From: a virus
Virus record (IMG/VR): IMGVR_UViG_3300020055_000003
Coordinates: 124,001-188,000 of that record
Direction: 5' to 3' (one strand)
Length of the DNA: 64,000 bases
Positions 1,836 to 64,000 of this stretch are shown here, in pieces. The first letter of the stretch is position 1. The number at the start of each line of letters is the position of its first letter. Made by a program: the position numbers and the translations under genes. Below the pieces are notes generated by a model. The model ran no database searches, was not told the origin of the DNA, and saw only the letters and a program-made list of their open reading frames with translations.

Positions 1836-1848
1836 GAAAGAGGCAAAA

Positions 1849-2136: not shown

Positions 2137-2138
2137 AA

Positions 2139-2397: not shown

Positions 2398-2399
2398 CC

Positions 2400-2485: not shown

Positions 2486-2504
2486 ATCAATCTTGGAGAT
2501 TATT

Positions 2505-4306: not shown

Positions 4307-4316
4307 GGAGAATGAT

Positions 4317-5408: not shown

Positions 5409-5411
5409 AAT

Positions 5412-5716
5412 TCGTAATTGTTGATGCAATTCAAAACACATACTGGACTTGGGGGCAGTACCCAACGCCTCCACCATAAATGCACTATGTCCTGCTGCAT
5501 CAGGAAGTTATGCAGAACATAGGTTGCCCACGATGGGACGCCGAAGTTAGTGCATTTTTGATGGGGGCGAACTAGGATCGACAGGTGAGTAGAGATGAGT
5601 GGAGATTACCGTGGTGGCTTACGATATTCGGCCAACTAAACTAAATGCAAACGATAATTTTGCACCTTCTGAGTTCGCTCTAGCAGCGTAACCACAGGGG
5701 GTTGGCCACTCACCTA
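5412..5716 (+). ncRNA. ssrA: Circularly permuted two-piece tmRNA (ssrA)
   Basis: The acceptor piece comes first: TTGGGGGCAGTACCCAA T-arm, then CGCCTCC (5466-5472), discriminator A and CCA (5474-5476). An intervening segment follows, closed by AAATGCACTA (5478-5487) with TAGTGCATTT (5548-5557). The coding piece then starts at GGGGGCG (5563-5569), which pairs with CGCCTCC and gives a G3-U70 wobble, the alanine identity element. GGATCGAC follows as in the tmRNA D-region. The tag frame runs from resume codon GCA (5647) to TAA (5689-5691) and encodes ANDNFAPSEFALAA. AGGTGAGT (5583-5590) pairs with ACTCACCT (5708-5715) near the 3' end. This permuted order is the alphaproteobacterial type. tmRNA rescues stalled ribosomes and tags the nascent chain for proteolysis. 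Outer ends are estimates. Confidence 0.92.
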
Positions 5717-5759
5717 GCAACAGAAGAAGTGGCGCTCATAATAAAAAGGAATAACAAAA

Positions 5760-6113
5760 ATGAGAAGTATTATTTTGTCAGGTGCATTTGCACTTGTATT
5801 GGCAAGTTCGGCCGCAGCGATGGAACTTGGAAACGGTCTTTCATGGAACAATGAAGTGACAGCAGAAAGAAATTTGGAAACAGAAACAAATAGCTTTACA
5901 TTTGAAACTGATGTTGCATGGGATTTTGGATTGGGTACTTTAGAAGTCGGCCCAAATGTATTTGATCTTGAAAATATTGAATGGACTTCAACAGAATACC
6001 AAGTAACTATGCCAGTCAAATTTCTTGATGGCGCAGAAGTTTTTACAAAAACATCTACCAATAGTGATTGGGAAATTGGTGACGTAACAATCGGCGCATC
6101 TTTCACATTCTAA
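5760..6113 (+). CDS. Small secreted, outer-membrane-barrel-like protein (117 aa)
   Basis: The product starts with a clear Sec signal peptide: MRS, hydrophobic core IILSGAFALVLAS, and a small-residue cleavage region ending SAAA near residue 20. The mature part of about 97 residues is made of alternating strands and ends in VTIGASFTF. A C-terminal Phe preceded by alternating hydrophobics is the usual signature for outer-membrane beta-barrel assembly. AAAAAGGAATAACAAAA precedes the ATG. It lies 44 bases after the tmRNA and before a terminator, so both may share a transcript. A phage-encoded envelope protein could alter the host surface, for example in superinfection exclusion; this is inference. 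Confidence 0.75.
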   Translation: MRSIILSGAFALVLASSAAAMELGNGLSWNNEVTAERNLETETNSFTFETDVAWDFGLGTLEVGPNVFDLENIEWTSTEYQVTMPVKFLDGAEVFTKTSTNSDWEIGDVTIGASFTF

Positions 6114-46191: not shown

Positions 46192-48240
46192 ATGGCACAA
46201 AGATATGTAGATCCTAGCACTTTTACAAACTACGGAGTATCTAGACAAAGAAGTTCTTTCACCACACTTCAGGGTGTTGGTGAAATTTCTAGTGCTGGAG
46301 CGATTTCTGGCGGCGCGATGATGGTTCTTGCGACAGATTTGACTACAAGTTGGACTATGTATAATGGAGATCCTATTGCGGGAAATGAAATTATTGATCA
46401 GGATATTGCCAGTCCAGTGACTCCAATCACAAAACAATTTTTCACACAGGTTTCTTTGAATCGTCCAACCACTTCTAATGGCGCGGGCTCTGGACCTTAT
46501 GCTGGAGTTGCAAACTTTAGTCAACTCAATGCTGGAATTAATCCAGAACAACATGTTATGGTTTTTGAAACTAATGACGATATTTTACCAAAAAGTGGTG
46601 CCGTTTCGAGAGGGATTGACCAAAATTATAGAATTAGATTTGAGTTGGATTTGCGTCCAAGACTTTATTTTGATGTGGCAGGAAATTCTGGTGATGTTGA
46701 ATTTAACCAAGAATTATATCAATTAAATATTCGTATGAGTTCTAGGGGCGATCCGCAATATGCAGTTGGTAGTACAATTGATGAAGCAACATTTGTTCCA
46801 GATTCTTATCATCCTGGCTATTCATTTACAGGAACATTAGCTTCTGGATGGGAGTTATCCACAGGAATACCAAATCCAAAATATGGTTGGTTCAAAGTAA
46901 ATGTAGGAACCGCAAATCAAATATTAAATGATGGTAGTGTAGTATCTCCACAATTGAGTGGTGATGGACTTATTACATTAGAAAACGGTTCGTCCACAAA
47001 CACATCAGTTATTAGAAATCCTGGCGAGATGGTAGACTTATCTTTTGATGATGTTGTTATTGCTGCTGATGTTTCTAATAGTGGCCCATATCATGTTTAC
47101 GGAACTGAAACGGACACTTCTACATATGGCCTTAGTAAAGGATATTATTATCCATTGTATCTAGACCAAGCAGCTTCGAATGCAGCGGATATTGCAGCAG
47201 GAGGCACAGGAATATCTCATACTCATACTTTTACTGAATATCCTCTTGCCACCTTCTATATGCCAGATTCTGACCAAAATCATACAATGGCAACCGCTCC
47301 GAGCTCTTCTAGTTACACAAGATATATAAACAATAGATCGATAAGATTTAGAAATAAAAGAAAAGGTGGTGGATGGTTTAAGAGATATCCTAAAACCGAC
47401 CCTACTCTTGAAGGAACATATCCTTTTTCATATAGATTAACAATGACTGAAAGAGGATTAATTTTATATATGTATGATGATGCGGCAAGTGATCAGGCAG
47501 ATGATTATGCGTGGTTTTGCGTTCAAAGAACAGTAAGCAATGAAAGTGGATTACCAAGAACAGATGAGGGTTCAAAATTTCCAGTTCACGCAATGTACTC
47601 ATGTTCAAGAGAATCTTCATATTCTAGTGATGCAGGAGTTTATTTTTCCAGTCAGGCTGCAAATTTACAAACAGCAGAAACTATGGTTAATCAAGTTTAC
47701 GACGATCAAGGAAATGAATATACGCTTGAAAATATTGATAATACTAAAACATTTTATATTTTGAGTCCATTTGATAGAGAAGATTATCTTGGAGATGAAG
47801 CAGCCGCAAAAAATATTTGGAGATTTGTTGTAAGAGAATTTGATATTCAAAAACCATCTGATGTTCATAAATTTGCAACAAGACATCAAATTGATAGCAA
47901 TGCAGTAATCAATCCACTGGAACAATTAGCAATCACAGACGAAAACAGATTTGTCATTACATTTCCAACGGGACTTACGACACAAAGATTTATGTATCCA
48001 AAAGAAGAGATAGATCTTATTTGTTTTTCCTCTGCTGAAGTTGTTGCTGAAGGAAGTAATATTCCAATGGCAACATATCTATACGATGGAGCTAGTGAAG
48101 ATAAAAGACGCTATCAGGGAATGCGTTCAACTGCTGCATTTGGAAACGGTATGAGAATTATGGTTTTGGTTAATTCACAATACATATTTAATTCGGATGT
48201 TAACTTAGATGCCAACGACCCTGTTGGAACAGGAACTTAA
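46192..48240 (+). CDS. Virion structural protein, paralogue A (682 aa)
   Basis: The product is the shortest of three related proteins. The shared elements are a middle block YPFSYRLTMTERGLILYMYD and DDYAWFCVQRTV, then a C-terminal block FVVREFDIQKPSDVHKFATR, INPLEQLAITDENRFVI, YPKEEIDLICFSSAE and RSTAAFGNGMRIMVL. The N-terminal 380 residues are unique. GAAGGTAGATATTA precedes the ATG. It probably forms part of the baseplate-fibre assembly; no enzymatic motif is seen. Confidence 0.7.
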   Translation: MAQRYVDPSTFTNYGVSRQRSSFTTLQGVGEISSAGAISGGAMMVLATDLTTSWTMYNGDPIAGNEIIDQDIASPVTPITKQFFTQVSLNRPTTSNGAGSGPYAGVANFSQLNAGINPEQHVMVFETNDDILPKSGAVSRGIDQNYRIRFELDLRPRLYFDVAGNSGDVEFNQELYQLNIRMSSRGDPQYAVGSTIDEATFVPDSYHPGYSFTGTLASGWELSTGIPNPKYGWFKVNVGTANQILNDGSVVSPQLSGDGLITLENGSSTNTSVIRNPGEMVDLSFDDVVIAADVSNSGPYHVYGTETDTSTYGLSKGYYYPLYLDQAASNAADIAAGGTGISHTHTFTEYPLATFYMPDSDQNHTMATAPSSSSYTRYINNRSIRFRNKRKGGGWFKRYPKTDPTLEGTYPFSYRLTMTERGLILYMYDDAASDQADDYAWFCVQRTVSNESGLPRTDEGSKFPVHAMYSCSRESSYSSDAGVYFSSQAANLQTAETMVNQVYDDQGNEYTLENIDNTKTFYILSPFDREDYLGDEAAAKNIWRFVVREFDIQKPSDVHKFATRHQIDSNAVINPLEQLAITDENRFVITFPTGLTTQRFMYPKEEIDLICFSSAEVVAEGSNIPMATYLYDGASEDKRRYQGMRSTAAFGNGMRIMVLVNSQYIFNSDVNLDANDPVGTGT

Positions 48241-48266
48241 TAAAGATATAAGGACTATTTTTTTTT

Positions 48267-48274
48267 TATAAATA
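48267..48274 (+). promoter_or_regulatory. T4-type late promoter upstream of paralogue B
   Basis: TATAAATA follows a 10-T run in a 62-base gap, 29 bases before the ATG, with AAAGGAGAATTTA as ribosome binding site. The leader TTTTTTTATAAATATAAAGA also occurs before paralogue C, so promoter and gene were probably duplicated together. Confidence 0.78.
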
Positions 48275-48302
48275 TAAAGAAAAATACACAAAGGAGAATT
48301 TA

Positions 48303-51300
48303 ATGCCTATCGCCAGCGGATTCAGTATTCAAAGAAATGACATTATTGATGTCGCACATCGGACGCAGAAAGAAATGCACACAGCAAATTCTGCGACCGA
48401 TACCTATATTTTAAGATCAAAACCAGATTTCACTGATAAAGAGTGGGAATGGGATATCAGAATGGGTGAAGTCAGATTGTATCTGGATAGAAGAAAAGGA
48501 AATAATGTTCTTGCTATTCCAACAATGGCATCAGAAATAACAGAATGGCGCGGAAAAAATTATACGGAAGGTTCTTTAGTTGCTGGAGAAGGTGGTGTAA
48601 TTTACGATAGTAGTGTTGGTGAATTTGGAGCATTAATATTTAGCGATCTTTCTAAACCAACTTCTGGCGAAATTGTTGAAATTCAATATAGTGAGGCACT
48701 AGAAAAATTTACTGGCAATGACGGCGGCCTTCTTTTCCAACTGGCACATGACCTTTGTGTTCATCCATATAATACTCCAGAAACTTTTAGGGCAAAATTT
48801 AGTAATGCAGAGACATTAAAAATTAATCCGGCCGGAGATGCGCTTGATCCAACCACTAATGGCATCAACCCAAGCCAAACAATTACTGGAACTCTTCTTA
48901 GCCAAAACGGCGACAACCTATCGGTGTTCAGAAACGATTTATCTGTAAGATATAATCATGATTATTTAGAAGATGGAACGAAGGCTGAACAAAGAGAAGG
49001 GTATCAGTTGTGGAAGGTTGTTACAGAACATAGAGAATCGGCCACTGTAGACCTTAGTGCTGGCGCTAACGCAACAACTCCTATAACTTTGATGGACGAT
49101 TTTCCTTTAATTGAAGGAGATCTTGGTTCTGGTGAATTTAGAGTTGCAATTAATGGAAGAGTTATTCCAAGAGATCACTATACAATTAGTAGTGAGGTTG
49201 CTGATAGAAAATCTACATTCAAACTGATAAGAGATACAACTTTATATCCACTAACTTGGGTCGCAGATTTAGTTTCATCGAATATTGTAATCACCTATCA
49301 TTGGGCAAAATCGCTAGATGTTCCATATGGGGCATTAGTTGGTTATAAAGGAATGGGCCCAGATCAGGCAAATTTAACACAAACTAATGCAACTGTAAAT
49401 CCAGCAGATGGTTCTTTTCCTAGACAGGGCGCAGATAAAGAGTATTGGGTATATAGTACTCCAATTTTAGCATCCCCTGCTACAACAGGAATTAACGGAT
49501 TTGTTGGTTGGGTTTATGATACTGGTACAAACGCAGCAAATGTTGTAACAGATCAAAGTACGGTAGGTACACCTATTACTACAGATGGAATGAGCGAAAG
49601 AAGAAAAAATCTTGCTACCGTTTCTGATGGAGATGTATTCTACTTATCTTTCGTTCAAAATGACGATTTTGCAAACCCATTTGAATTGGTTTATCCAAAA
49701 CCAGTAAGTTCTGAATCAGCTGATGTTAAAGCAGCGCTGAGAAGAATTACTAATAAATTTCTTGTTGAGTCAGATAAGGGTGTTGATTTATTGTCAGCAT
49801 CAGATATGTCTTTCCTTAATAGTTATTCTCCTGTTACTGCAAGAAAATCACAGAGATGGAGAATTAGATTTGAATGGAATGAATCTGACTTTGCATTAAA
49901 AGTAAATGTTGCAACACACCATCAATTAAAAGATGATATGACCATTACTCAGCCTCAAGGTAGAGATGGAATTAAGTCTCCAGTCTATAGAGAGCCTGGA
50001 GAACTTTGTGATGTTTATAAAGAACCTGTTATTGGAAAGGGTGCAAGCGTTCAAATTACAACAGCAAAACAACAGTGGTTCAAAAGAAATAAAATTGTTG
50101 ATGAATTGTCCTTAACATATCCAATGTCATATCGTTTGACATGTACAAATCATGGGTTAGGATTATTTTTGTTCGATCAAGCCTCAGTAGATCAAGATGA
50201 TGATTACGCATGGTTTGTTGTACAAAGACATGTGGATCAAACAACAGGACAGCCAGAATATACTGACAAGTCTCCCGTACATTGTGTATATTCTCCATTC
50301 AAACCAACTGCTGATATATCTACCATTAATAGATATTATGCTGTAGATGATTTGGATGATTTATCTCAACCACCGCCAATTGCGAATGCATTGGGAGATA
50401 TTTTTAAATCCGAATCTCCAACGATTTTCATAGACAAAGATAATTCTATTTTTAATGGATATGTAAATGCTGTAGATTTTAATAGTTTTGGATACACCAC
50501 TGGCGTATCTGCTGGTATTTCCACTGGTGGAAATATAGTTACCACAGATTTCAAGGCCGATTTGTTTAGAGGAATTACAGGCACTTCTGGAATTCCTTCG
50601 ACATCTCTCTGGTCAGCAACAACATATTCGTTTCAAATAGATGCTAATACAGCTGATCTTTCAACATTGGAAGATTCCGGCGCATTAATGGCTGGACGAT
50701 ATATTCAATTTGATGCTAATGATGCCTCATTTGCCTCAGCACCAAATCCAGCTGATGCCGTTGGCGGGCGTATTATATCATATAACAAAAGCACTAAGGA
50801 ATTGGTAATTTCTATGTCAGCAGACAAGAAAGCAGTTGCAGATGCTCTTGCGGGACAGGTGCCGGTTACTGCACACTTAGGAACAAGTGCGACTGGTGAT
50901 GTGATAGGAATTAACGATTTTGCACAATCATCTCTTGCACAAGATTATGGGATTTTACATACTTTACCATATACAGGTGCGGACCAAGTTCTATTGACAA
51001 CTCATAGTAGTGATTCAAATGCATTGTGTGTGAAGAATGAACTTGGAAATGTAAATGATTTGAATGTTGTTGGATTTAACTCCCTTCCAAGAAGAAGAGA
51101 AACGGCAGTTACAATGGGTGCGTCAAAATCTCCAGTTCCACTTATAAGAGATTCTTTAGCAAATCCAGTTTCTATGATTACTGCTACTTCTAATGGTAAT
51201 AATTTTACAGCAAATCATCCAGCAGCTGCTCTGTGGGTAAATACATTAGATATGGCTCCTTCTGCTTCTGGTAATGTAGTTTTCCCAGCACAACTATTAG

Positions 51301-52568
51301 ATAGAATGTCTACTTTTAGGACAGCATCATCAAGCGGAACAGGAGTTCCACCTGTTCCAGAAAATATTAGTCTTTCAGATTATAAAGAAGGGGATTCTGC
51401 TGTTTTAGACATATTATATAACGCTCAACCAACAAACGCATCAAAAGTTTTTGAATCTATTGTTGTAGCAATTGATGATGTTGAAGTTGTAAGAGACCCA
51501 GATGCATATGTTCTTACATATGATGAATGGGTAGCACACGGCGATCCATCTACCGCTGGAAAATTTTTAGAAATGCTTGAAGCGGCCGGTGCGGATAATA
51601 TTGGACCAAACTTCAAACTTCCAGCAGTTAACACAACTGTTTCTAATCTATTGGGAGAGACAGTAGATGGAACAATAGATGGTTCTGTTGTTAATAGAGT
51701 AACAAATCGTAGAATGTTTTTAGACAAAACTGGAGATTCTTTTGTAATCGCTTCTGGAAATTTAGTTGTCTCTACAAACGATACAAAATTGAGTAGTTTA
51801 TTGCCAGGTGATATTGTTTGGAAAGAAAACTCAACCACAGATGCTTCTAGAAATACATATATGTATGATTTCTGGAACAAAACTTTAGTATTCAAATATG
51901 CTCCTAGAGCAAGTGCAAACTTTAGTATTTCTATGGTAAATTATACATCTTCTAATCCATCTCAAAATAGATATATTATTGATGTTCCAGAAGATAGAAA
52001 TTTCCCAGAAACAAATATGAATAAAATTAAAACAATTAATAGATTTGTTGTTAGAGAACAGGACGTATTAAAACCTTGGGATTATCATGTTTCTGCTACA
52101 ATGCACGAAATTGACTCTCATGCGATCATCAATCCTCAAGAACAATTGTCCATAACACAGGATAGAAATTTTGTGTTCTCGTTCCCAACACAAATTACAT
52201 CACAGAGGTTTTATTACCCACAAAGTGAACTTGATATTATTTGTGTATCTTCTGCTGATTTCTCTACTCAAGCTGGTCATGTAGAAATAAATAAGTATGG
52301 AGATTCAGATGGGTTGAATGGAGTATTTTCTGGAAATGATTTTGTTCCAGCGGGCCTCGATGGTGACGAAGGCACAAGATATGCTGGGCATGTTGGACCA
52401 GATGGAGAAAAATATATCTGGAGAAAGTCTGCAAGAAAATATGAAGGAATGGTTTCTACACTTCCAAATGGAAATGGTATGCGAATTTTCATGCAAGTAA
52501 CGGGATCTAGTATTAGATACAGTGATGTGTCGCCAGGAAAAGATCCGGGCTCCGTCTTAGGAACATAA
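48303..52568 (+). CDS. Virion structural protein, paralogue B (1,421 aa)
   Basis: The product begins PIASGFSIQRNDIIDVAHRT, similar to paralogue C (GGFSIQRNEMVSM). It shares YPMSYRLTCTNHGLGLFLFD and DDDYAWFVVQRHV (middle), then a C-terminal FVVREQDVLKPWDYHVSATM, INPQEQLSITQD, QRFYYPQSELDIICVSSADF and GNGMRIFMQV. Between the shared blocks is a long unique beta-rich region (residues about 690-1,200). The family is seen as large structural proteins in marine T4-like phages; the conserved ends suggest docking modules and the variable middle a surface-exposed part. Confidence 0.72.
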   Translation: MPIASGFSIQRNDIIDVAHRTQKEMHTANSATDTYILRSKPDFTDKEWEWDIRMGEVRLYLDRRKGNNVLAIPTMASEITEWRGKNYTEGSLVAGEGGVIYDSSVGEFGALIFSDLSKPTSGEIVEIQYSEALEKFTGNDGGLLFQLAHDLCVHPYNTPETFRAKFSNAETLKINPAGDALDPTTNGINPSQTITGTLLSQNGDNLSVFRNDLSVRYNHDYLEDGTKAEQREGYQLWKVVTEHRESATVDLSAGANATTPITLMDDFPLIEGDLGSGEFRVAINGRVIPRDHYTISSEVADRKSTFKLIRDTTLYPLTWVADLVSSNIVITYHWAKSLDVPYGALVGYKGMGPDQANLTQTNATVNPADGSFPRQGADKEYWVYSTPILASPATTGINGFVGWVYDTGTNAANVVTDQSTVGTPITTDGMSERRKNLATVSDGDVFYLSFVQNDDFANPFELVYPKPVSSESADVKAALRRITNKFLVESDKGVDLLSASDMSFLNSYSPVTARKSQRWRIRFEWNESDFALKVNVATHHQLKDDMTITQPQGRDGIKSPVYREPGELCDVYKEPVIGKGASVQITTAKQQWFKRNKIVDELSLTYPMSYRLTCTNHGLGLFLFDQASVDQDDDYAWFVVQRHVDQTTGQPEYTDKSPVHCVYSPFKPTADISTINRYYAVDDLDDLSQPPPIANALGDIFKSESPTIFIDKDNSIFNGYVNAVDFNSFGYTTGVSAGISTGGNIVTTDFKADLFRGITGTSGIPSTSLWSATTYSFQIDANTADLSTLEDSGALMAGRYIQFDANDASFASAPNPADAVGGRIISYNKSTKELVISMSADKKAVADALAGQVPVTAHLGTSATGDVIGINDFAQSSLAQDYGILHTLPYTGADQVLLTTHSSDSNALCVKNELGNVNDLNVVGFNSLPRRRETAVTMGASKSPVPLIRDSLANPVSMITATSNGNNFTANHPAAALWVNTLDMAPSASGNVVFPAQLLDRMSTFRTASSSGTGVPPVPENISLSDYKEGDSAVLDILYNAQPTNASKVFESIVVAIDDVEVVRDPDAYVLTYDEWVAHGDPSTAGKFLEMLEAAGADNIGPNFKLPAVNTTVSNLLGETVDGTIDGSVVNRVTNRRMFLDKTGDSFVIASGNLVVSTNDTKLSSLLPGDIVWKENSTTDASRNTYMYDFWNKTLVFKYAPRASANFSISMVNYTSSNPSQNRYIIDVPEDRNFPETNMNKIKTINRFVVREQDVLKPWDYHVSATMHEIDSHAIINPQEQLSITQDRNFVFSFPTQITSQRFYYPQSELDIICVSSADFSTQAGHVEINKYGDSDGLNGVFSGNDFVPAGLDGDEGTRYAGHVGPDGEKYIWRKSARKYEGMVSTLPNGNGMRIFMQVTGSSIRYSDVSPGKDPGSVLGT

Positions 52569-52586
52569 ACATAGGAAAAGTTTTTT

Positions 52587-52594
52587 TATAAATA
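52587..52594 (+). promoter_or_regulatory. T4-type late promoter upstream of paralogue C
   Basis: TATAAATA preceded by a T-run lies in the 57-base gap, 32 bases before the ATG, with TTTAAAGGAGAACATAA as ribosome binding site. Sequence from the T-run through ATAAAGAAAA matches the paralogue B leader. Confidence 0.78.
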
Positions 52595-52625
52595 TAAAGA
52601 AAAGCAACTTTAAAGGAGAACATAA

Positions 52626-55600
52626 ATGGCTACCTCACTAGCAACCGAATTTTTGTCAGGTGGTTTTTCTATCCAAAGAAACGAAATGGTGTCTATGCAG
52701 CAACAGAAACACCGCCAAAAGTTTCAGTTTTTGAATAGTTTTAACCAAACATATACAAGACTCGATAGACCAGCACAAGGAGAATTTGATAGAATTCGTC
52801 CTTATTCACTATCATCTGAAAAAAGACAATTTATTGGTGGGACTGTTACTACAGTAACTACTCCATTAACACAAACATATAGAAATGGAAATCAAAAAGC
52901 ACAACTAGGAGGTATCACTTTAAACTCACAGGGTGGTATTGTAACTCTCAATGTTCTTTCTGGTGGATATGGTTATGCTCCTAGTACAACATTTAATGTG
53001 ATCTTTAGAGGTGGCCAACCAGATGTTGGAACTTTCGAGCAATGTTACGCTACAGCACAATCAGACGGTGAGGGTAGAATTGTTTCTGTAGATATTCAAG
53101 TCACTGGATTGAACTATGATGAAACAACTGGTGCCGAAATTACAGCAGAAATAGATGAGTCTCCTACTATTGGACAGTTCTATGTTTCTTTCTTTGATGG
53201 GGTTGGTGCTATTACTGGAGTTGATATTGAAAGTGGAAACACAGGACATCGCCCTGGCGTTTATTTTGTAGAAGCTGGCACGGTTGCTGTTGGTGTCGGT
53301 GAGGATGGTGTAACTCCAAACGCTTCAGCAGGTTCTGGTGGTACTTTCCAAGTGCATGTTGATAATAGCGGCGCTGTTATTAAAGTAGTTCCTCTTACTT
53401 TTGGACAAGATTATCTTGTCGGAAATGAAATTACTATTCCAGCAACACGACTTGGTAATAATGGAACTCAGTTAACACCAGTTACCGATCTTGTTATTAG
53501 TGTCAGTTCTGTTGTTGACGCCGATCAGTTTGCCCTTGATTATGGAACAGTCACTTGGAGAAGTGAAACCTTTCAAGTTGGCGATACTGTTGTTTTAGAA
53601 TATTTTATCGATACTTCTAGAGATACAAGAGCTGTTGATGGTGTTCTTAGAACACTTGCTACTGATTTGTGTCTACATCCATATGGAAACTATTATAGTT
53701 CTGCATTTTCAACTGTCCAACAAAGAAATGCTGTTTTGACTTGGGATGCTGCTCCGACTTATGGTGTTACTACATTTACTGCCACTTTAACAGATGCTGT
53801 TTCTGGATTTGCTTTAACAGCAGATACAGGATTTCAACCAGGCGATGTTGGTAAAAGAATTATTGAACCAAATAAAACTGGCGCTGCAAAAATTATATCT
53901 GTAGATGCCGCTGGTGTTGCTACAGTAACTATGGATAATGTTTTGGAACCAGATACAAGAGAAGTAAATGCATTTGAAAGTTCCACAAAAACCACATATT
54001 CGGTAGGAGAATGGAGACTTGCGATTGCAACATCTGAATTTGAATCGCAACCATATAATATCATTTATCCATATCTCAATTCAGATGCAACTTCTCCAAT
54101 TCCAATCGCAGTTGATGGTCAACAAAACCATAGAGATGTTAAAACATGTATCAATAGAATTGGTGATATGTTTATTGTAGAATCTGAAAAGGCAACAGAC
54201 CTTCTTTCTTCGAAAGCAGATATTAACTCTGCTACTTCAGCTATACCATCTTCGGTTTCTTTGACACAACCAGTAAAAGATGCTAGAAAACCACAAAAAT
54301 GGAGAATGAGATTCTTCTATGACCAAAGAGATGAATATCTTTATGTAAATATAGCAACTTCTCTTCAAATTAAGGACAATGGAGATTTGACAAAAGGTCA
54401 AGGACGTGATGGTATTAAACAGGCAGTATTTAGACAGCCAGGAGAATTAAGTGAAATTTATTACAATTTCTCCAATGATACTAACAAAGCAAAATCTGGT
54501 TGGTTCCGTAGACAAGGTAAAACAACAGACGATATTGAAAGCGGATATCCACTTGCATATCGTTTAACTTGTACTGACCATGGCACAGGACTGTTCTTGT
54601 TTGACCAAGCATCAGTAGATCAAGATGATGACTACGCATGGTTTGTTGTACAAAGACATGTTAACAATGTTTCTGGAAGAATCGAATTTGAAGATGGAAA
54701 ATCTCCAGTACATTGTTTATATTCACCATCTACAAGGCCAGAAGAAACATCAAACTATAATGTAGGTTTCTTTGCAGAAGTTGATGAAGATTTGGATGTT
54801 ATCAGTGGACAAACTACAATAACATCAAAATCTCTTGAAGAACTTCAAATCTATGATGTGAATGGTAGATTGCTTAAACCAGGCCTACCAGTAGATGTAT
54901 CTATTGTTACAGATTCTAGTCCTGTGGAATTTAGAACTACTCCATATTCGGGCGGACCTAAATATCTCGCTCCAACTCTTGCTGCTGGCGGTGTTGCCGG
55001 TGTTGGTCCGTATGATGGAATTTCATTTGTCGATACCGCGACACTAGGAACAGATTCCACAACTGGATATACAATTATTAATGACCAAGTGCTTATGCCA
55101 GCAATTACTGGTGGTGCGACTGGAACATATGAAGATCTAGCTATTTCAAAAAGTGCTGGATTTACAGGAGCAACTATTACTGATAGAACTCAATTTTCTC
55201 TGAATTTTGCTAAGGGATATGGAACAACTTTTGTTCCTGTGGGACAATTTATCACTGCACTAGAACAAACGAATAGATTTACAGCTAATGTGGATGAAGA
55301 TATTGCAAAAACCGCAGCAGACATAGGAGACTCCAGAACCGTTGTTGCAAAGGCTGGATTTACTATTGGTGGTTTGGATAACTTTAACGCAGCAAGAAAT
55401 CAGATGACGGGCCCTGCTAGACTCGGATTGACGCCATCTAGAATTAGACATAGAAGTAGATCTGGTGTTGATACATACTTAGAGGTTTCCGATTTCCAAT
55501 TCCTTGATAAAACTGAAATTGCACCAAGGGTAAATCCAAACGGCAAGGCAAGAGAACTTCCAGTCGTTTCATCTGTAGCAATATTTAAACCTCTTTCTGG

Positions 55601-57128
55601 ATTTGCAAAAAATCTAGTAAACCAACAAAGAGTGAGAATAATTCACGTTACTCCTGTAACAGCTACATATTCTGCTGGTTCAAATATTCCAGTAATAGCA
55701 CTACAGGCCGCTGGATCAATTACTGGACCGGTAACTGGATTGACAGATGATGTAAATGCAGAAATTGTTCCAATCCCTTACGCACAATTGGGCGGAAGCA
55801 CAGCAGGATTTATTACAGACTATTCTGGTTTATCAGAAGCAACTCCAACCAATAATGGATTTATTACTGGTGGCAGCGGTTTTACTGACATGTTTATTAC
55901 TGCTCCAGGCTCTGGAACTTTAGATATGGCTGTGGGTGATATGATTACAACTAAACAAGAAGCTGTCAAAGTTGATGCTACATATCTTGGAGCGCCAGGA
56001 GCGCCAATTGAGGGTTATAGAGTTGATGCTATTGTTGATACTTTCTCAGAAGGTGATGGTTTCATTTATGAATATGCATGGGAAGGTGCTGGATTTGGTA
56101 ACACATATACAAACTTCTATGGAAGATCTGGTACTTCATCCAACCCACTATTTGAAGTAAATAGATTGAAAATATTTGTTGATGGTGCAGAAGCAGATGC
56201 TGCTGTTTTCGGACAAAACTATACTATCAACTCAGCGGGAGAAGTAGAGTTTGGTACAACTAATAAGAGTTTGGAATACTTTGGTGTTGAGAAACCAATG
56301 TATGCGTATAACTTGACAAACGACACATGGACTTTCAATGAAGTAATTGAAAATGGAACAGTTGTAAAACTTTCTTATGAAAACTATAATGATATCGAAG
56401 AAAGAGATACAGGTAAATCAACATACTTGATTAAAGTTCCAGAGGATAGAGATATTCCAAGCATTTGGAATGATATTCACAGAGTTGCCAAAGGTATCTA
56501 CAGATTCTGTGTCAGAGAAGCCGATGTGTTCAAACCTTGGGATTATCATGTATCTGCTGTAATTCCACAAGTAGATAGCCCTGCATGTATTAACCCTGTA
56601 GAACAGTTGTCAATTACACAAGACAAGACAGTTATCTTTAACTTCCCAACACCTCTTGCATCACAAAGATTTATCTATAGTGATGCTGAAATGGACTTGA
56701 TTTGTGTCGCAGGCGCAGACAGTTCAACTCAAGGTGGTATTATCAAAACTGCTTCTACAAAGTATGACTTGGATGCTGCACAAATCTCTGCGGTTACTGA
56801 TGGACATACTCCAGGCACTGAAAATATATCAAGCAATGGAGATAAAATGAATTTCCGTCAACCATATGATTGGCACAACACTCACCAAGGAGTTCACTCA
56901 GCTACATTGGCTACAAATGGTGGAGTTGCATCTTTTAGAGATGGAGCTGTGGCTGTTGATACCATTTCGAACTCAACACACAGAACATATGTTGGTATGA
57001 TGAGTACAAAACCTTTTGGTAACGGCATGAGAATCTTTATCTTAACAAGAGGTGGGCCAGTTAGACCACAATATAGTGACTATACTCCAAGAGATATTAG
57101 AGCAGAAAACGAAAATACATTTACATAA
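52626..57128 (+). CDS. Virion structural protein, paralogue C (1,500 aa)
   Basis: This is the largest member of the three-protein family. It has SGGFSIQRNEMVSMQQQKHR at the N-terminus and a series of GGYGYAP-type and TGLNYDE-type beta modules (residues about 95-300). The shared middle YPLAYRLTCTDHGTGLFLFD plus VDQDDDYAWFVVQRHV is followed by the shared end FCVREADVFKPWDYHVSAVI, INPVEQLSITQDKTVIF, DAEMDLICVAGADSST and GNGMRIFILTRGG. The codon choice looks more host-like than in paralogue A (more C-ending codons late in the gene). A terminator follows. Confidence 0.72.
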   Translation: MATSLATEFLSGGFSIQRNEMVSMQQQKHRQKFQFLNSFNQTYTRLDRPAQGEFDRIRPYSLSSEKRQFIGGTVTTVTTPLTQTYRNGNQKAQLGGITLNSQGGIVTLNVLSGGYGYAPSTTFNVIFRGGQPDVGTFEQCYATAQSDGEGRIVSVDIQVTGLNYDETTGAEITAEIDESPTIGQFYVSFFDGVGAITGVDIESGNTGHRPGVYFVEAGTVAVGVGEDGVTPNASAGSGGTFQVHVDNSGAVIKVVPLTFGQDYLVGNEITIPATRLGNNGTQLTPVTDLVISVSSVVDADQFALDYGTVTWRSETFQVGDTVVLEYFIDTSRDTRAVDGVLRTLATDLCLHPYGNYYSSAFSTVQQRNAVLTWDAAPTYGVTTFTATLTDAVSGFALTADTGFQPGDVGKRIIEPNKTGAAKIISVDAAGVATVTMDNVLEPDTREVNAFESSTKTTYSVGEWRLAIATSEFESQPYNIIYPYLNSDATSPIPIAVDGQQNHRDVKTCINRIGDMFIVESEKATDLLSSKADINSATSAIPSSVSLTQPVKDARKPQKWRMRFFYDQRDEYLYVNIATSLQIKDNGDLTKGQGRDGIKQAVFRQPGELSEIYYNFSNDTNKAKSGWFRRQGKTTDDIESGYPLAYRLTCTDHGTGLFLFDQASVDQDDDYAWFVVQRHVNNVSGRIEFEDGKSPVHCLYSPSTRPEETSNYNVGFFAEVDEDLDVISGQTTITSKSLEELQIYDVNGRLLKPGLPVDVSIVTDSSPVEFRTTPYSGGPKYLAPTLAAGGVAGVGPYDGISFVDTATLGTDSTTGYTIINDQVLMPAITGGATGTYEDLAISKSAGFTGATITDRTQFSLNFAKGYGTTFVPVGQFITALEQTNRFTANVDEDIAKTAADIGDSRTVVAKAGFTIGGLDNFNAARNQMTGPARLGLTPSRIRHRSRSGVDTYLEVSDFQFLDKTEIAPRVNPNGKARELPVVSSVAIFKPLSGFAKNLVNQQRVRIIHVTPVTATYSAGSNIPVIALQAAGSITGPVTGLTDDVNAEIVPIPYAQLGGSTAGFITDYSGLSEATPTNNGFITGGSGFTDMFITAPGSGTLDMAVGDMITTKQEAVKVDATYLGAPGAPIEGYRVDAIVDTFSEGDGFIYEYAWEGAGFGNTYTNFYGRSGTSSNPLFEVNRLKIFVDGAEADAAVFGQNYTINSAGEVEFGTTNKSLEYFGVEKPMYAYNLTNDTWTFNEVIENGTVVKLSYENYNDIEERDTGKSTYLIKVPEDRDIPSIWNDIHRVAKGIYRFCVREADVFKPWDYHVSAVIPQVDSPACINPVEQLSITQDKTVIFNFPTPLASQRFIYSDAEMDLICVAGADSSTQGGIIKTASTKYDLDAAQISAVTDGHTPGTENISSNGDKMNFRQPYDWHNTHQGVHSATLATNGGVASFRDGAVAVDTISNSTHRTYVGMMSTKPFGNGMRIFILTRGGPVRPQYSDYTPRDIRAENENTFT

Positions 57129-57157
57129 TATAAAAGTATCATAGTTTTAGATAAATA

Positions 57158-57186
57158 AGGGGAGGCACTTAGCTTCCCCTTTTTTG
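57158..57186 (+). terminator. Intrinsic terminator after paralogue C
   Basis: AAGGGGAGGC (57158-57167) pairs with GCTTCCCCTT (57173-57182) across a 5-base loop with one G-U pair, followed by a T-run. The hairpin ends only 12 bases before the next ATG at 57199, so that gene needs read-through or a separate start; GATAAATA at 57151-57158 resembles a degenerate late promoter. Confidence 0.85.
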
Positions 57187-57198
57187 TTGCAGAGAAAA

Positions 57199-60100
57199 AT
57201 GTCAGTCGTAAATATATTTTTATTTAGAGATATAGTAAAAGTTAAGATTGGAATAGGTTCGCCTTCCAATCCTGGCACTCCTACGGATGGTCAAGAGATC
57301 TCCGAGGGAAACATAACATATGTTTACAATGCGTCTACAACAAATTGGGATATTACAACAAAAACAAATCAAGTTTTTGTGTCAGGATTATCTTCTGCTA
57401 TAACTATAAATTTTTCAGCCGGTGATATTATAAAAAATGGTAATAGTGTCGGAACATCTACCACAGTAGATAATGGAGATACCGTTAGGCTTTCAGTTAC
57501 AAGTCCTGTATTAAATACGGTGAACAATTATACGTTCACTGCTGATTCTACAACATTAGAATTTAATGTGGAATTAAATGATCCAGTAACCGCAAATTAT
57601 GATGTAGAAAAAGCCGAAACAATTTCTAATAACGACGACTTAGAAAAAGAAGATGAAAATGTAAATTTAATTTCTGGTGCAACAGAAAATTTATTTCAGA
57701 ATATTGCAAAACAGACTCAAACAACAGAGCGTGATGCTCTAATAGTAAAAGATACTATTGAAAAATATGTACAAGAAAGAGTTGGTAGTAATTTACTTGA
57801 GCCAGATTTTGCAGATATTGATATTATTACTGAAATTGCAAAGTTAGAAGGAATCAATCTTGAATTTATTGCTGACATAGAAACTATTACTCTAAGAGAT
57901 TTTATTTTAGCATATCTTCAAGATACAGAACTGAAAACTTTAGAATATACTCCTACAGAAGAAACAGTAGAAGAAAAATCTCAAGAATCTATTGAAGAGG
58001 AAGAAACTTTACAAACTTCTGAAACCGAAAAATCAGAAGTTTTAGAAACAATTTCTACTACAGATGCTTCTTTGTTGGAAACATCTGATAGCGATTCTTT
58101 ATTAGAAACTAATCTAATTGAAGATTCAGAAACCATTACTTCTTTAGAAACTGCAAGTGCGGAGATTACAGAGATTATATCTGCAAAAGATGCGGAGATT
58201 AATAATGTTACAGACACTATTGAGACAACACAGACATCTACATTTGAAGATATTGAAGAGATCTCTTCTCAGGAGACTTCTACATTAGAAGAAACGGAAA
58301 CAATAACAACTTCTGAAACAGACAAGGCAGAAGAGACAGAGTTTGTTTCATTCACAGAAACTTCTACTCTAGAAGAAACCGAATCTACTTCAATCACAGA
58401 AACTTCTACTCTAGAAGAAACCGAATCTACTTCAATCACAGAAACTTCTACTTTAGAAGAAGTAGAGGATGTTTCATTTACTAATATTGAAGCTGATGAA
58501 GTTCTTGAGCAGGCCAATTTACTAGAACAAATTAAAAACGAGCTTCAAGAACTCACAGAAACGAAACAATCTGAAATACTAAGTGAACTAGAAAATATTT
58601 TTCTGAATAATTTAGAAAATTTTTCTGAACAGATTACGGTAGATTTTATATCTCAAAATTTAGCAGATATTTTAGAGAAAGAAAATTTATCAGTACCAGA
58701 ATTCAATAGTTTTGAAGAATTACAACAGTTTCTTCAAAATGAATTAGATTCTACTACCGAGATCACTTCTCTGCGTCAACTGAATTTAGGAGAAATTGAT
58801 GAAATAATTTCCGTTTCTCTTCAGGAAACATTTACGGATAGCGTAGTCGATTCTTTATTGGACACGCCTATCAATGAAATAATAGATTCTGTTGAATTTG
58901 CAGATCCAAACATACTGAATGAAATTGAGACTTTTATAGAAACTAATTTCCCTCAAGCTTCTATAGAAGAAACCACAACATTTATAGAACCAAGAGAAAG
59001 TTCAAACGAAGCTGAAACAGTAGAAGCACAAGAAAAAATTACTGGTGCGACAGAACTTGTTTCTGGGGTTGATGACACTGATGATTCTTCAGTAAGTTCT
59101 GCTGTAAGCACAGATACTTCAGTAGAAGATTCTTCTTTAGAAAATGCAGCAAATCCTGATCAAACCGAGGATTTTATTCCAGTATCGGGAGTTTCAGAAA
59201 CGACAATTCCAGAAACTGAAACATCAGAATCTGAAGATTCTTATGAATTCGAAAAATTTAGTGATGAAGAAATCAATGAAGTAAAAGAGATAGAAACTAC
59301 ATCAACAGATGAAATTAATGATACAAGAGAATTAGAATCTTCAACACCAGACGAAAGTGAAAATTTAAGAGAATTGGATTTTGGTTCCGATTCGGATGTT
59401 GTTGAAACACAAGAAAAAATTACTGGTGCGGTAGAACTTGTTTCTGGTTCTGATGATACTGAAGATTCATCACAACCAACTGCTGTATCTACTGAAGGCA
59501 CTGAAGATTCATCACAACCAACTGCTGTATCTACTGAAGGCACTGAAGATTCATCACAACCAACTGCTGTATCTACTGAAGGCACTGAAGATTCATCACA
59601 ACCAACTGCTGTATCTACTGAAGGCACTGAAGATTTTATTCAGCCACCGTCTATTGGATCTGAAGAAACTGAAGAGGAATCACAAAAAACTGATATATCA
59701 ACATCAGAGACTATTGATAGTGGTTTGATTTCTGTTGTTGGTTCTGATGGCATTGTTGAAGATTCTCAAAAAACGATAAACAATTCTGATGATGCTGTAG
59801 ATACAGTACAAACTTCAGTAATTGCATCTGAAGACGAAGAAGAAGATTCTCAACAAATAACTGTCAACTCTAATGATGCTGTAGATACATCACAAATAAT
59901 AGTTGTTGCATCTGAAGATGAAGAAGAAGATTCTCAACAAATAACTGTCAACTCTAATGATGCTGTAGATACAGTACAAACTTCAGTAATTGCATCTGAA
60001 GATGAAGAAGAAGATTCTCAACAAATAACTGTCAACTCTAATGATGCTGTAGATACAGTACAAACTTCAGTAATTGCATCTGAAGATGAGGAAGAAGCGG

Positions 60101-62832
60101 CGCAGATAACAACCATATCTTCTAACTCTATAGACATTTCAGAGATAGAATCTATTATTCCGGCCGAAGATGTTTCAGATATTTCTTTAGATTCAAATTT
60201 AGAACAAGGAGAAGAAGTAGATGCTCAAATCCAGTCTGTAGCAAGCGCTGAGGTGCGCGAAGATGTTGCTGAAGCGGGAACTGCATCAGAAGATATCTCT
60301 GTAGATAACGATGTGGCTGCAGCGTCTAACGCCGATACTGCTGTTGATAATAGTTTAGAAATTATACTTTCGACTGATGATAGTTTGGACGACCAACTCA
60401 CATCTGGGACGGTTACGGATGAAATTTTAGATTCTTCATTAGAACTTTCTACAAATTTAGATGATACTACAGATCAAGCAATACTTCAAACACCACCAGT
60501 TGATGATACTACAGATCAAGCAATACTTCAAACACCACCAGTTGATGATACTACAGATCAAGCAATACTTCAAACACCACCAGTTGATGAAAGCGAAGAT
60601 CAAGCAATACTTCAAATACCACCAGTTGATGAAAGCGAAGATGTTCAACAACCCATTGTAGTTACAGCAGAAACAGATATTAATGAAGATGCAGATTCAT
60701 TCATAGGTGCAGATATAGCAATAGATGATACAGATTCTTTAGTTACTGCAAAAGAAGAATCCGTAGACAGTACAGAATCTATAGATGCTGGAGAAGATCC
60801 TTCAATTGATACTTCTGTTGTTTCTATTGTTTCTGACGAAACATCAGAAGATAATACAATTCCTGTTGTGACAGCTGTGGAAGATGAAGTCGAAGAACCT
60901 ACAATTTCTACAAAATCTGAAAATGATAGTATTGATTCTGAAATTGTTTCTTCAGCTCAATCAGAAATTCCTAATGACGAAGCTGATTTTATAGAGACTG
61001 GAGTTGACCCCAGTGAAGATCAGAGTTTGGAATTTACTCTTCAAACAGATTCTAATGTTGATTTTACTTCACCTCTTCCAGTTTCAGAAGATGATTTAAT
61101 TCCAGACACTGAAAATATTATTTCGCAACAAGATACAAATATTGACCTTACAGATAGTGTGTCTCCTAATATTGACGAACCAACAGATGAGACTGTTCCA
61201 GTATTAGCACAAGAAGATGTTAGAACTGATCTTACAGATAGTGTATCTCCTAATATTGATGAACCAACAGACGAGACTCTTCCAGTATTAGCACAAGAAG
61301 ATATTAGAACTGATGATAGTGATTTCGTGGAATCGCAAACCGATCTGCGGCCTGATGAGACAAGTCCAGTTACGGCTCAATTCGATGAGACAATTGATAA
61401 TGATTCAGCACCAGATTCGCAAACCGATCCACGGCCCGATGAGACAAGCCCTGTCACAACTCAATTCGATGAGACAATTGATAATGATTCAGCACCAGAT
61501 TCGCAAGTAGATGATCAGCCCGATGAGACAAGTCCTGTCACAACTCAATTCGATGAGACAATTGATAATGATTCAGCGCTAGATCCTCAAGTAGATGATC
61601 GGCCTGATGAGACAAGTCCAGTTACGGCTCAGTTTGATGAGACAATTGATAATGATTCAGCGCTAGATCCCCAAGTAGATGATCGGCCTGATGAGACAAG
61701 TCCAGTTACGGCTCAATTTGATGAAAGTTTAGATGATACTGACCCAACTATAGTTCAATCTGACCTCATAGAAGAAGATACAATAAATCAAAATGGCGGC
61801 GAAAACCTTGAAATAGATGATACAGATATTTCTACTCTAAATGAAACTCCAGAAATTGATGATACAGATGCTGTTCCAACTGCTGAAAATTCTGTCGAAA
61901 TAGAAGAAATTGTTTTAGATTCGAGTTCAGAGGTGCCGGTAGATGCGGATATTGATTTATCTGGAATCGAAGATACCGTAACAGATCAGGACACTCCAAA
62001 TCGTATAAGCGATGATGTAAGTTTGGATGACCCTCTAATATTGGAGCCATCAGTAGACGATACAACTGATGATGCTGTTGTATTTTCTAAAAATGACGAT
62101 ACTGTAGATGATGATGCAATAATATCAATTATTGAAACAGATCTTATTGATGATACTGAAATAAATTTAGGATTTACTGATGATATTCTAACAGACCAAG
62201 ACACTCCAACTATCGGGGTGGATGATGAATTAGGAGATGAGGATGTTGTATTTGTAACTTCGACAGACGATACGATAGATGATGCTGTTATTGTAGAAAC
62301 GATAGTAGATGATACGATAGATGATGCTGTTATTGTAGAAACGGCAGTAGACGATACAACTGATGATGCTGTTATTCTAGAAACAGCAGTAGATGATACA
62401 AATGATGAACAATTACAAGTAGGTGCAACAACTGATGATACGGCAGATCAAGAAACTCGGCCGAGACTTAGTGTTACTATAGAAACAGATTCGCAAATAG
62501 TTCTTAGATCTGGTACAGATGAAACTGATACCGAAGCATTGGTTTCAGTAGTTCCAGATGAAGATCCAGTCCAAGCACCAAACATTCCTAAGCCTCCGGC
62601 TGAAGAACCTGTAGAAGAACCTCCTATTTCAAAGCCAGGCGAAGATACATTACCAGAATTAGCTCCACCGATTAGTGAAGGTTTGGATGATTTTAATAGA
62701 GAAAAAGGAATAATTATAATGAGAACTGGAGAAGATAGGTTGTATGCGTTAACTCCTGTTTTTGATAGCGTAAAAAATAGAAATATTGGTCCGTTTATTG
62801 ATAGACGCGATTCAGATAGATATTTTGGATAA
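57199..62832 (+). CDS. Giant acidic 14-residue-repeat protein (1,877 aa)
   Basis: The ATG at 57199 (MSVVNIFLFRDIVKVK) is chosen over a TTG at 57184 inside the terminator. Residues 1-130 form a beta-rich head with SNPGTPTDGQEISEGN. Residues 250-431 are 13 consecutive 14-residue repeats such as TLEETESTSITETS. Residues about 432-600 are helical (LLEQIKNELQELTETKQ). Residues about 607-1,785 are about 84 further 14-residue repeats, nearly gap-free, with Asp/Glu at positions 3-4 and Asp at 7, for example PVDDTTDQAILQTP. The Pro-rich end leads to a conserved-looking tail (LDDFNREKGIIIMRTGEDRL, DRRDSDRYFG). There is no signal peptide or enzyme motif. It is probably an extended virion appendage or spacer encoded with the fibres; family not recognised. 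Confidence 0.8.
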   Translation: MSVVNIFLFRDIVKVKIGIGSPSNPGTPTDGQEISEGNITYVYNASTTNWDITTKTNQVFVSGLSSAITINFSAGDIIKNGNSVGTSTTVDNGDTVRLSVTSPVLNTVNNYTFTADSTTLEFNVELNDPVTANYDVEKAETISNNDDLEKEDENVNLISGATENLFQNIAKQTQTTERDALIVKDTIEKYVQERVGSNLLEPDFADIDIITEIAKLEGINLEFIADIETITLRDFILAYLQDTELKTLEYTPTEETVEEKSQESIEEEETLQTSETEKSEVLETISTTDASLLETSDSDSLLETNLIEDSETITSLETASAEITEIISAKDAEINNVTDTIETTQTSTFEDIEEISSQETSTLEETETITTSETDKAEETEFVSFTETSTLEETESTSITETSTLEETESTSITETSTLEEVEDVSFTNIEADEVLEQANLLEQIKNELQELTETKQSEILSELENIFLNNLENFSEQITVDFISQNLADILEKENLSVPEFNSFEELQQFLQNELDSTTEITSLRQLNLGEIDEIISVSLQETFTDSVVDSLLDTPINEIIDSVEFADPNILNEIETFIETNFPQASIEETTTFIEPRESSNEAETVEAQEKITGATELVSGVDDTDDSSVSSAVSTDTSVEDSSLENAANPDQTEDFIPVSGVSETTIPETETSESEDSYEFEKFSDEEINEVKEIETTSTDEINDTRELESSTPDESENLRELDFGSDSDVVETQEKITGAVELVSGSDDTEDSSQPTAVSTEGTEDSSQPTAVSTEGTEDSSQPTAVSTEGTEDSSQPTAVSTEGTEDFIQPPSIGSEETEEESQKTDISTSETIDSGLISVVGSDGIVEDSQKTINNSDDAVDTVQTSVIASEDEEEDSQQITVNSNDAVDTSQIIVVASEDEEEDSQQITVNSNDAVDTVQTSVIASEDEEEDSQQITVNSNDAVDTVQTSVIASEDEEEAAQITTISSNSIDISEIESIIPAEDVSDISLDSNLEQGEEVDAQIQSVASAEVREDVAEAGTASEDISVDNDVAAASNADTAVDNSLEIILSTDDSLDDQLTSGTVTDEILDSSLELSTNLDDTTDQAILQTPPVDDTTDQAILQTPPVDDTTDQAILQTPPVDESEDQAILQIPPVDESEDVQQPIVVTAETDINEDADSFIGADIAIDDTDSLVTAKEESVDSTESIDAGEDPSIDTSVVSIVSDETSEDNTIPVVTAVEDEVEEPTISTKSENDSIDSEIVSSAQSEIPNDEADFIETGVDPSEDQSLEFTLQTDSNVDFTSPLPVSEDDLIPDTENIISQQDTNIDLTDSVSPNIDEPTDETVPVLAQEDVRTDLTDSVSPNIDEPTDETLPVLAQEDIRTDDSDFVESQTDLRPDETSPVTAQFDETIDNDSAPDSQTDPRPDETSPVTTQFDETIDNDSAPDSQVDDQPDETSPVTTQFDETIDNDSALDPQVDDRPDETSPVTAQFDETIDNDSALDPQVDDRPDETSPVTAQFDESLDDTDPTIVQSDLIEEDTINQNGGENLEIDDTDISTLNETPEIDDTDAVPTAENSVEIEEIVLDSSSEVPVDADIDLSGIEDTVTDQDTPNRISDDVSLDDPLILEPSVDDTTDDAVVFSKNDDTVDDDAIISIIETDLIDDTEINLGFTDDILTDQDTPTIGVDDELGDEDVVFVTSTDDTIDDAVIVETIVDDTIDDAVIVETAVDDTTDDAVILETAVDDTNDEQLQVGATTDDTADQETRPRLSVTIETDSQIVLRSGTDETDTEALVSVVPDEDPVQAPNIPKPPAEEPVEEPPISKPGEDTLPELAPPISEGLDDFNREKGIIIMRTGEDRLYALTPVFDSVKNRNIGPFIDRRDSDRYFG
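58360..58461 (+). repeat. 42-bp tandem repeat, first array of the repeat protein
   Basis: Two nearly identical 42-base units (58360-58401, 58402-58443) plus a partial third encode TSTLEETESTSITE in register with the 14-residue array. Confidence 0.85.
59458..59634 (+). repeat. Four identical 42-bp tandem repeats
   Basis: Four identical 42-base units (59458-59625) plus a 9-base partial unit encode TEDSSQPTAVSTEG. Base identity across copies indicates recent duplication or gene conversion. Confidence 0.95.
59782..60117 (+). repeat. 84-bp tandem repeats (two 14-residue units each)
   Basis: Four copies start at 59782, 59866, 59950 and 60034. Each encodes NSNDAVDTVQTSVI followed by ASEDEEEDSQQITV; the last copy is degenerate at its end. 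Confidence 0.92.
60460..60627 (+). repeat. 42-bp tandem repeats encoding DDTTDQAILQTPPV
   Basis: Three identical copies (60460-60585) are followed by a diverged fourth (60586-60627, DESEDQAILQIPPV). Confidence 0.95.
61351..61722 (+). repeat. 84-bp tandem repeats encoding PDETSPVTAQFDET units
   Basis: About 4.4 copies of an 84-base unit run through this segment. Copies differ by a few substitutions, for example QTDPRP versus QVDDRP. Confidence 0.92.
62263..62415 (+). repeat. 42-bp tandem repeats near the end of the repeat protein
   Basis: Three copies (62263-62304, 62305-62346, 62347-62388) and a partial fourth encode DDTIDDAVIVET-type units. Confidence 0.9.
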
Positions 62833-62838: not shown

Positions 62839-64000
62839 ATGCCTCAGGTACAAATACGTGGCGGAACAAAAGTTCAAGCCAGAACAAGAAGGATAGATAA
62901 TATAATTTTCGATTCTGTGGCCGAAGTTACGGTGCAGTATGTAAATTATTATTATGATGAGTCAAAAGAAAAAAATATTGCCCTTGAAAAGTTAAGAACC
63001 TCAATCACATTTGAAACTATCACTTCAAAGTTAGAATATAATCATTTAGAATTAGATTTTTTAGAAGGAACCACTAGTCCATATGTTCCAATTGGTACAG
63101 AAAGTATGGAAAAATTTGCAACCGTTTCTGCGCCCCCTATAGATTATGTGGCAATACATAATGAATTTTTGCCAGGAAAGTTTGTAAGTTCTAAAAATCA
63201 TAGAGAAAGATTTTCTGGAGATGATTCTAGCAGATTTGTTGTGCTTGATGATAATTTTAGAAAAACTGCTACTATGCCATTACGGCACGTACACACTTTA
63301 AATAATCCTAATGATTCTGGGCCGGGGGATGCGTTTCATTTTTCCATTTTATCTAGAAATATACTTACAGAAAATCCCAAGGTTAGAGTTAGTGTTTACA
63401 GAAGCACTTTGGAGTATGAAGATGCAATTGAAAATTTGGATGAATTTCAAAGAGGCTTGTCGTCTGTATTCGTTCAAAGCTTTGATTATTCGATTGAGGG
63501 TGTTGGATGGAATAGATTTGTAATAAATTTAAGAACTTTAAACATACCTATTGGTAACTGCTTGTTGTGGTTTGTTATTGAAAGATTGCCAATTATAATT
63601 GAAAATCCATTTGATATTCCTTCTGGAGAATATAATGAATCATTTAATGAAACTAATATACAAATAGAAACTATCGTTGATGATAATTCTGAAACTAAAA
63701 TTTATAGATTTTTAAGTTCTATAGATGATTGGATTGATAATGACACATTAACAACTAGGCCCTTTTCTATTCAAATAAATGGAGTCGATTTAACTTTAGA
63801 TGTTGATTTTTCATATCAATTATTTAAACATAGAGAAACTATACGAAAATTAGAAATAACATTTTCTGACGATGTTCTTCCATTAACTCAGGAAGGCGAA
63901 CTTTCATCTTTCTCAGGAGTTCTTACAGTTGAGCCTAGAACAACAGGTGTTAATTCTTATGCTATTTTATCGAATTGGTATAAATTTTCACACGGCGCAA
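62839..64000 (+). CDS. Beta-rich hypothetical virion protein, 3' end outside the window
   Basis: The ATG at 62839 lies six bases after the previous stop, and the frame stays open to the window edge (387 codons). The product begins MPQVQIRGGTKVQARTRRID and is beta-rich, with FHFSILSRNI and LRHVHTLNNPNDSGPGDAF in the first half and repeated acidic loops later. No enzyme motif or signal peptide is seen. Proximity to the repeat protein suggests a fibre or appendage component. Family not recognised. Confidence 0.7.
   Translation, partial: MPQVQIRGGTKVQARTRRIDNIIFDSVAEVTVQYVNYYYDESKEKNIALEKLRTSITFETITSKLEYNHLELDFLEGTTSPYVPIGTESMEKFATVSAPPIDYVAIHNEFLPGKFVSSKNHRERFSGDDSSRFVVLDDNFRKTATMPLRHVHTLNNPNDSGPGDAFHFSILSRNILTENPKVRVSVYRSTLEYEDAIENLDEFQRGLSSVFVQSFDYSIEGVGWNRFVINLRTLNIPIGNCLLWFVIERLPIIIENPFDIPSGEYNESFNETNIQIETIVDDNSETKIYRFLSSIDDWIDNDTLTTRPFSIQINGVDLTLDVDFSYQLFKHRETIRKLEITFSDDVLPLTQEGELSSFSGVLTVEPRTTGVNSYAILSNWYKFSHGA

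Follow-up and report, generated by a model that had tools for sequence, protein, structure and literature searches.

A 14-residue-repeat open reading frame lies on the + strand of the analysed DNA, a stretch of 64,000 nucleotides (the window) from a 203,815-bp virus contig, and stops at 62832. Read from TTG 57184 it encodes 1882 amino acids, and this frame underlies the residue numbers of the initial annotation, which had placed the repeat part at 57946–62553. The true start is assigned to ATG 57199, giving a gene of 1877 amino acids (57199–62832, +), because homologues start at MSV[TEI]NIFLF and the TTG belongs to the run of Ts of a terminator-like hairpin (57157–57181). Overlapping this hairpin just 5′ of the gene is GATAAATA (57150–57181, +), which has one mismatch to the T4-type late-promoter sequence TATAAATA and is 49 bases 5′ of the ATG. 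Exact copies of TATAAATA occur at 18307, 32383, 48267 and 52587, 34–41 bases upstream of the open reading frames at 18341, 32424, 48303 and 52626. As consensus matches only, they resemble T4-type late promoters in their spacing before virion-gene starts; across the whole window, TATAAATA occurs no more often than expected by chance. The 1877-residue protein contains 501 D+E versus 58 K+R, for a net charge of about −443. The array is no artefact, since 14.8 kb, with the whole array, recur without change in a second IMG/VR contig (L001), and 10.4 kb recur with one difference in another contig (L002).

The protein opens with a domain (57199–57588) that starts MSVxNIFLFxD, contains a PTDGQ...TYVYN...W hairpin (57271–57366), is conserved among homologues and was modelled by AlphaFold2 as an Ig-like beta sandwich (pLDDT 70–90). 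Two predicted helices (57655–57927, pLDDT about 40–65) link it to array A (57916–58503, about residues 245–440 in the 1882 numbering), which the period analyses divide into 14 units of 14 residues, rich in E, T and S (e.g., TLEETESTSITETS). After an inter-array segment that is non-repetitive and predicted to be helical by AlphaFold2 (58480–58947), array C (59002–62571, residues 607–1796 in the 1882 numbering) contains 85 D-rich units of 14 residues, in common register from about 59338 with one 1-residue slip earlier. A proline-rich linker (62572–62664) and a C-terminal segment (KGIIIMRTGEDRLYALTP...GPFIDR, 62665–62829), conserved in homologues and predicted by AlphaFold2 to form three beta strands, complete the chain. 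All of these features are on the + strand.

Autocorrelation, Fourier analysis and in-register similarity all gave a period of 14. Identity autocorrelation peaked at lags 14/28/42/56 in arrays A and C alike, acidic residues gave a Fourier peak at 14.00, and BLOSUM lag z-scores were 11.2, 14.3, 8.4, 10.5 and 7.3 at the multiples of 14 from 14 to 70, with any other lag at or below 2.1. Only lags 14/28/42/56/70 stand out, as expected of a single period rather than mixed ones. Fifty-six non-redundant units scored +1.8 in register versus −3.4 to −6.7 at other shifts. In a cross-validated phase test, 75 of 82 array C windows agreed in register (7% by chance), and those out of register started in the first ~100 residues of the array. 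This test replaced slip counts from a self-trained cyclic HMM (almost no slips), which were discarded when a power test recovered 3 of 12 planted slips; array C of the relative L133 is too uniform for the phase test to judge. About 77 units of the D-rich array keep a single register, and a slip of one residue lies close to the start of the array; the distance from VEAQEKITGATELVSG to VETQEKITGAVELVSG is 127 residues, or 9×14+1, which corresponds to one slip of one residue, the most that the initial annotation had allowed. Its two arrays of 14-residue units stand, but its count of about 97 repeats becomes about 99 (14 + 85). Mean identity between array C units is 0.18.

At the DNA level, tandem repeats on the + strand consist of 42-bp units at 58329–58461 (inside array A; 3.2 copies, 91% matches), 59458–59635 (4.2 copies, 100% identical), 60460–60632 (4.1 copies, 96%) and 62265–62399 (3.2 copies, 89%), and of 84-bp units at 59781–60097 (3.8 copies, 91%), 61143–61314 (2.0 copies, 93%) and 61348–61724 (4.5 copies, 90%). 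Base-identical units had been reported at both lengths; this is correct for 42-bp units, but the 84-bp units are near-identical. Elsewhere in the window, a 24-bp tandem repeat (13811–13890, 3.3 copies, 98%) lies inside a minus-strand 902-residue open reading frame that has a weak phage peptidase match.

Upstream of the gene are three phrog_12249 paralogues (46192–48240, 48303–52568 and 52626–57128; 46192–57128 overall, +, PHROGs profile), which are conserved neighbours. Farther upstream are T4-type baseplate genes and genes for a gp32-like ssDNA-binding protein and a gp59-like helicase loader. The downstream neighbour, of which the window holds the start (62839–64000, +), encodes 1730 amino acids with a tail-fibre-type PHROG match, and beyond the window follow a PAAR gene and a fourth phrog_12249 paralogue. 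The baseplate, phrog_12249 and PAAR neighbours bear out the placement of the gene in a virion region, here a tail/baseplate neighbourhood. The PHROG label "tail sheath" of the upstream paralogues is doubtful, and these are probably not sheath proteins, because the PF04984 sheath match is to a separate 1071-residue open reading frame elsewhere in the same genome and PaBG gp261 (phrog_12249) is an unnamed virion protein distinct from the two named sheath proteins of that phage (PMC7412058). The doubt over this label takes in G000:7314–7742 as well as window 46192–57128.

Relatives were gathered by neighbour-gene queries followed by N-terminal alignment, yielding about twenty contigs of about eight lineages, all uncultured. 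A 14-residue array is present wherever these contigs reach into the syntenic gene, with lags of 14/28/42/56 in homologues from about eight lineages and lag-14 z-scores of 8 to 18. Both ends of the homologues are conserved; the units differ almost completely (GEVDPSDTGDSADV, TDDTPDSPQQFETA, GTETETEVSAESDI, TDETSQTVSGAELI and SDLLNILESSDIDK). The sharing of one period by unrelated-looking repeats, first noted within the window protein, extends, beyond what the window letters could show, to lineages with unrelated units. Part of the pattern is common to some of them: the profile of the window D-rich array matched the array profiles of L090, L133, L126 and L132 above permuted columns (p = 0.0002 to 0.036) and those of L129 and L130 no better than permuted columns. 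The homologue L135 (− strand, 2–3157) contains hydrophobic, helix-like 14-residue units in steady register over about 900 residues (e.g., SDLLNVFSSSDVSK and GDILSILESSTIDT), a chemistry opposite to that of the window arrays. Acidic residues at fixed positions, as initially described, are found in the window protein, but L135 keeps the period with little acid, and acidity is therefore not a defining feature of the family. Pfam matches to L135 (ENT and others) were rejected as repeat-inflated helical matches. In L130 the N-terminal part (629–1483) and the array (1489–4575) are two adjacent genes, so the two parts may associate without being one chain. In L145 (7001–12054) the array gene is split into three overlapping frames, likely by assembly error in the repeats. 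No relative was found in GTDB genomes or, by whole-protein tblastn with the low-complexity filter on, among isolated phages.

Comparison of close full-length relatives gave array indels of 14 or 28 residues (one of 28 was split 26+2 by the aligner), and indels of 1 and 60 residues fell outside the D-rich array. Unit number differs between near-identical strains (L133/L134 and L131/L136), even at about 97% identity. The indel pattern is supporting, not decisive, because repeat-mediated recombination alone would yield multiples of 14. Codon comparison shows purifying selection, with dN/dS of 0.13–0.28 in the arrays versus 0.08–0.16 in most N-terminal domains and slightly higher array values in most pairs; array values may be biased, as gene conversion or repeat homogenisation can lower dN/dS and complicates array alignment. 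The stronger argument is the long-term one, that length stays 14 while units of window array C share 18% identity on average and lineages share very little.

For conformation, AlphaFold2 was run in monomer mode on residues 1–640 and 1300–1877, with five homologues as accompanying sequences (six in all). The N-terminal domain was confident (pLDDT 70–90), the helices flanking array A were plausible and the C-terminal beta sheet was weak. The arrays were modelled at pLDDT of about 25–45, with neither strands nor other secondary structure, a model confidence so low that it does not disprove a solenoid. In a charge-hydropathy comparison the window arrays fell on the unfolded side and the L135 arrays on the folded side. 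Both AlphaFold2 and charge-hydropathy point to extended window arrays. The in/out alternation of hydrophobic residues reached marginal significance in the window (p = 0.026) and was missing from most homologues, and beta alternation was rejected as a general feature. Together these three analyses lend no support to the beta-solenoid put forward initially. Hydrophobic residues showed periods peaking at 2.0 and 14.0, weakly at 3.5, with the hydrophobic columns of array A 6 and 8 apart. The arrays lack the heptad (a/d) pattern of a coiled coil, in agreement with the initial annotation, and the GGxGxD nonapeptides of RTX calcium beta-rolls, with G at 0–2% and a period of 14. Searches of Pfam, PHROGs and NCBIfam profiles and of PDB sequences returned no family that covers the protein, as anticipated for an undescribed repeat, and no such 14-residue-repeat protein was described in open-access literature. 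A PDB Foldseek search with the N-terminal model gave generic beta sandwiches, none below 0.001.

Among isolated jumbo phages, NCTB BN7874_240 (1330 amino acids) and PaBG gp262 (990 amino acids) adjoin phrog_12249 genes, as the window gene does, and an hmmsearch profile identified the N-terminal Ig-like domain in both (9e-11 and 5e-4, respectively). Foldseek with the N-terminal model likewise matched NCTB-length, Dickeya JA11 and PaBG proteins. However, the syntenic proteins of NCTB and PaBG lack 14-residue arrays, are not acidic and have a different C-terminus; a C-terminal profile matched nothing in the NCTB, PaBG, Y3 or HRDY3 regions. In contig L156, which like NCTB and PaBG is a more distant jumbo phage, the syntenic gene encodes an Ig-like domain with beta-propeller matches in place of an array. 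NCTB, PaBG and L156 carry the Ig-like domain without arrays, which makes it look as if one group had elaborated a more widespread virion gene by adding them. PaBG gp261 and gp263, on either side of the syntenic gene product, are virion proteins, and gp262 is absent from the 14 identified bands (PMC7412058).

The explanation to which we give about even confidence is that the gene encodes a late virion protein in which two 14-residue arrays form a variable-length, register-locked stalk or tether, probably part of the tail or baseplate of a T4-like marine jumbo myovirus. The tail/baseplate assignment is supported by synteny, by the proteomics of the flanking PaBG products (PMC7412058) and by the end domains; we infer the virion location, stalk function and extended conformation for the window product. 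Unit length persists among related phages through an almost complete change of unit sequence, which suggests that it is the spacing that counts, probably in a long stalk or tether borne on the tail of the virus. The two conserved ends, an Ig-like N-terminal domain and a small C-terminal beta domain, would serve as anchors joined by the long stalk of two arrays. Recombination between repeats would add or remove whole units (42 or 84 bp), so that stalk length would vary between strains, and both the spacing of 14 residues and the amino-acid composition would be maintained by selection. In seawater the stalk would probably act as an extended polyanionic tether, screened by ions, that keeps one of the anchors, with its associated adhesin or baseplate partner, at some distance from the tail. 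An extended polyanion cannot account for the whole family, because charge-hydropathy places the arrays of L135 on the folded side. A further point against the stalk or tether explanation is that a purely flexible tether would need no fixed register; the register makes some order, whether it depends on ions, on oligomers or on docking to a partner, more likely than a wholly passive spacer.

An ordered alternative would be a solenoid or multi-chain fibre in which each unit is one coil tolerant of many sequences, with acidic versions ordered by Ca2+/Mg2+ or oligomerisation. In its favour are a register maintained through many divergent units (mean identity 0.18), the same period in hydrophobic, foldable L135 units and low dN/dS; the unstructured AlphaFold2 models of the window arrays, insignificant strand-like alternation in most arrays and the absence of a PDB relative by sequence argue against it, and we regard it as unlikely, though the strongest of the rivals. 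We are similarly doubtful that this is a new repeat architecture in which length 14 is conserved instead of sequence or chemistry, and acidic, T/S-rich and hydrophobic units are freely exchanged within a single fibre scaffold whose coil length is fixed. Somewhat less probable again is a passive disordered acidic spacer, whose period would be no more than a leftover of tandem duplication and shared ancestry and whose spacing would have no function. Low complexity, AlphaFold2 pLDDT of about 30–40, the unfolded side of charge-hydropathy and unit numbers that differ in strains about 97% identical fit such a spacer; dN/dS of 0.13–0.28, a register kept through unit-sequence turnover in about eight lineages and the foldable L135 version do not. 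A soluble polyanion acting outside the virion, such as a DNA mimic or host-directed inhibitor, would suit the net charge of about −443, but the flanking PaBG products are in the virion (PMC7412058). Both the conserved position in the tail cluster across lineages and the conserved Ig-like and beta end domains also make this improbable. T4-type tail rings are spaced ~4 nm apart, roughly the span of 14 extended residues, but a strap or ruler along the tail with one unit per ring is very improbable: beyond the tail-region gene it has this coincidence of length only, unit number changes in near-identical strains (L133/L134 and L131/L136), and two chemically different arrays per protein are not expected of it.

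As a stalk or tether, the protein would belong to a kind already known, the repetitive viral stalk, with no described family appearing to cover the 14-residue version. Viruses and bacteria often carry long repetitive stalks; here unit length is held across lineages with sequence almost free, even from acidic to hydrophobic, offering a clean test case of whether selection in a repeat protein can act on spacing alone. The gene class is also a candidate for encoding the thin appendages of marine jumbo phages, most of whose proteins are unknown. The serine-aspartate repeat (Sdr) stalks of bacterial fibrillar adhesins, long acidic repetitive spacers that carry a domain off the surface, are alike in working but differ in having dipeptide repeats, no sequence relation and no fixed 14-residue register. 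Phage vB_PcaM_CBB, a jumbo myovirus with unexplained thin tail filaments (hair-like whiskers), is similar by description only, as the whisker gene products were not identified (PMC5259590).

Marine phage tail-fibre proteins with the N-terminus MAINFPNSPTDGQ...TYVYN...W share the PTDGQ/TYVYN hairpin with the window protein (53% over 32 amino acids). Their DISDLTDTTSLIPA repeat also happens to be 14 residues long, but a common repeat origin is not supported: shared ancestry with the 14-residue DISDLTDTT repeat found in marine fibres looked convincing by eye and by shift z-score and failed against permuted columns (p = 0.42). A widespread and apparently unnamed N-terminal module of marine phages, MAINFPNSPTDGQ...YVYN...W (L009–L088), precedes DISDLTDTTSLIPA 14-residue repeats, collagen-like repeats or other domains. 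An 87-residue MAINFPNSPTDGQ/DISDLTDTTSLIPA protein is encoded in the same genome as the window (L004, 1714–1977, −). The same phage genome also contains six tRNAs (window 892–2485) and a tmRNA gene (window 5383–5782, +), marked tmRNA* by ARAGORN, with the tag ANDNFAPSEFALAA.
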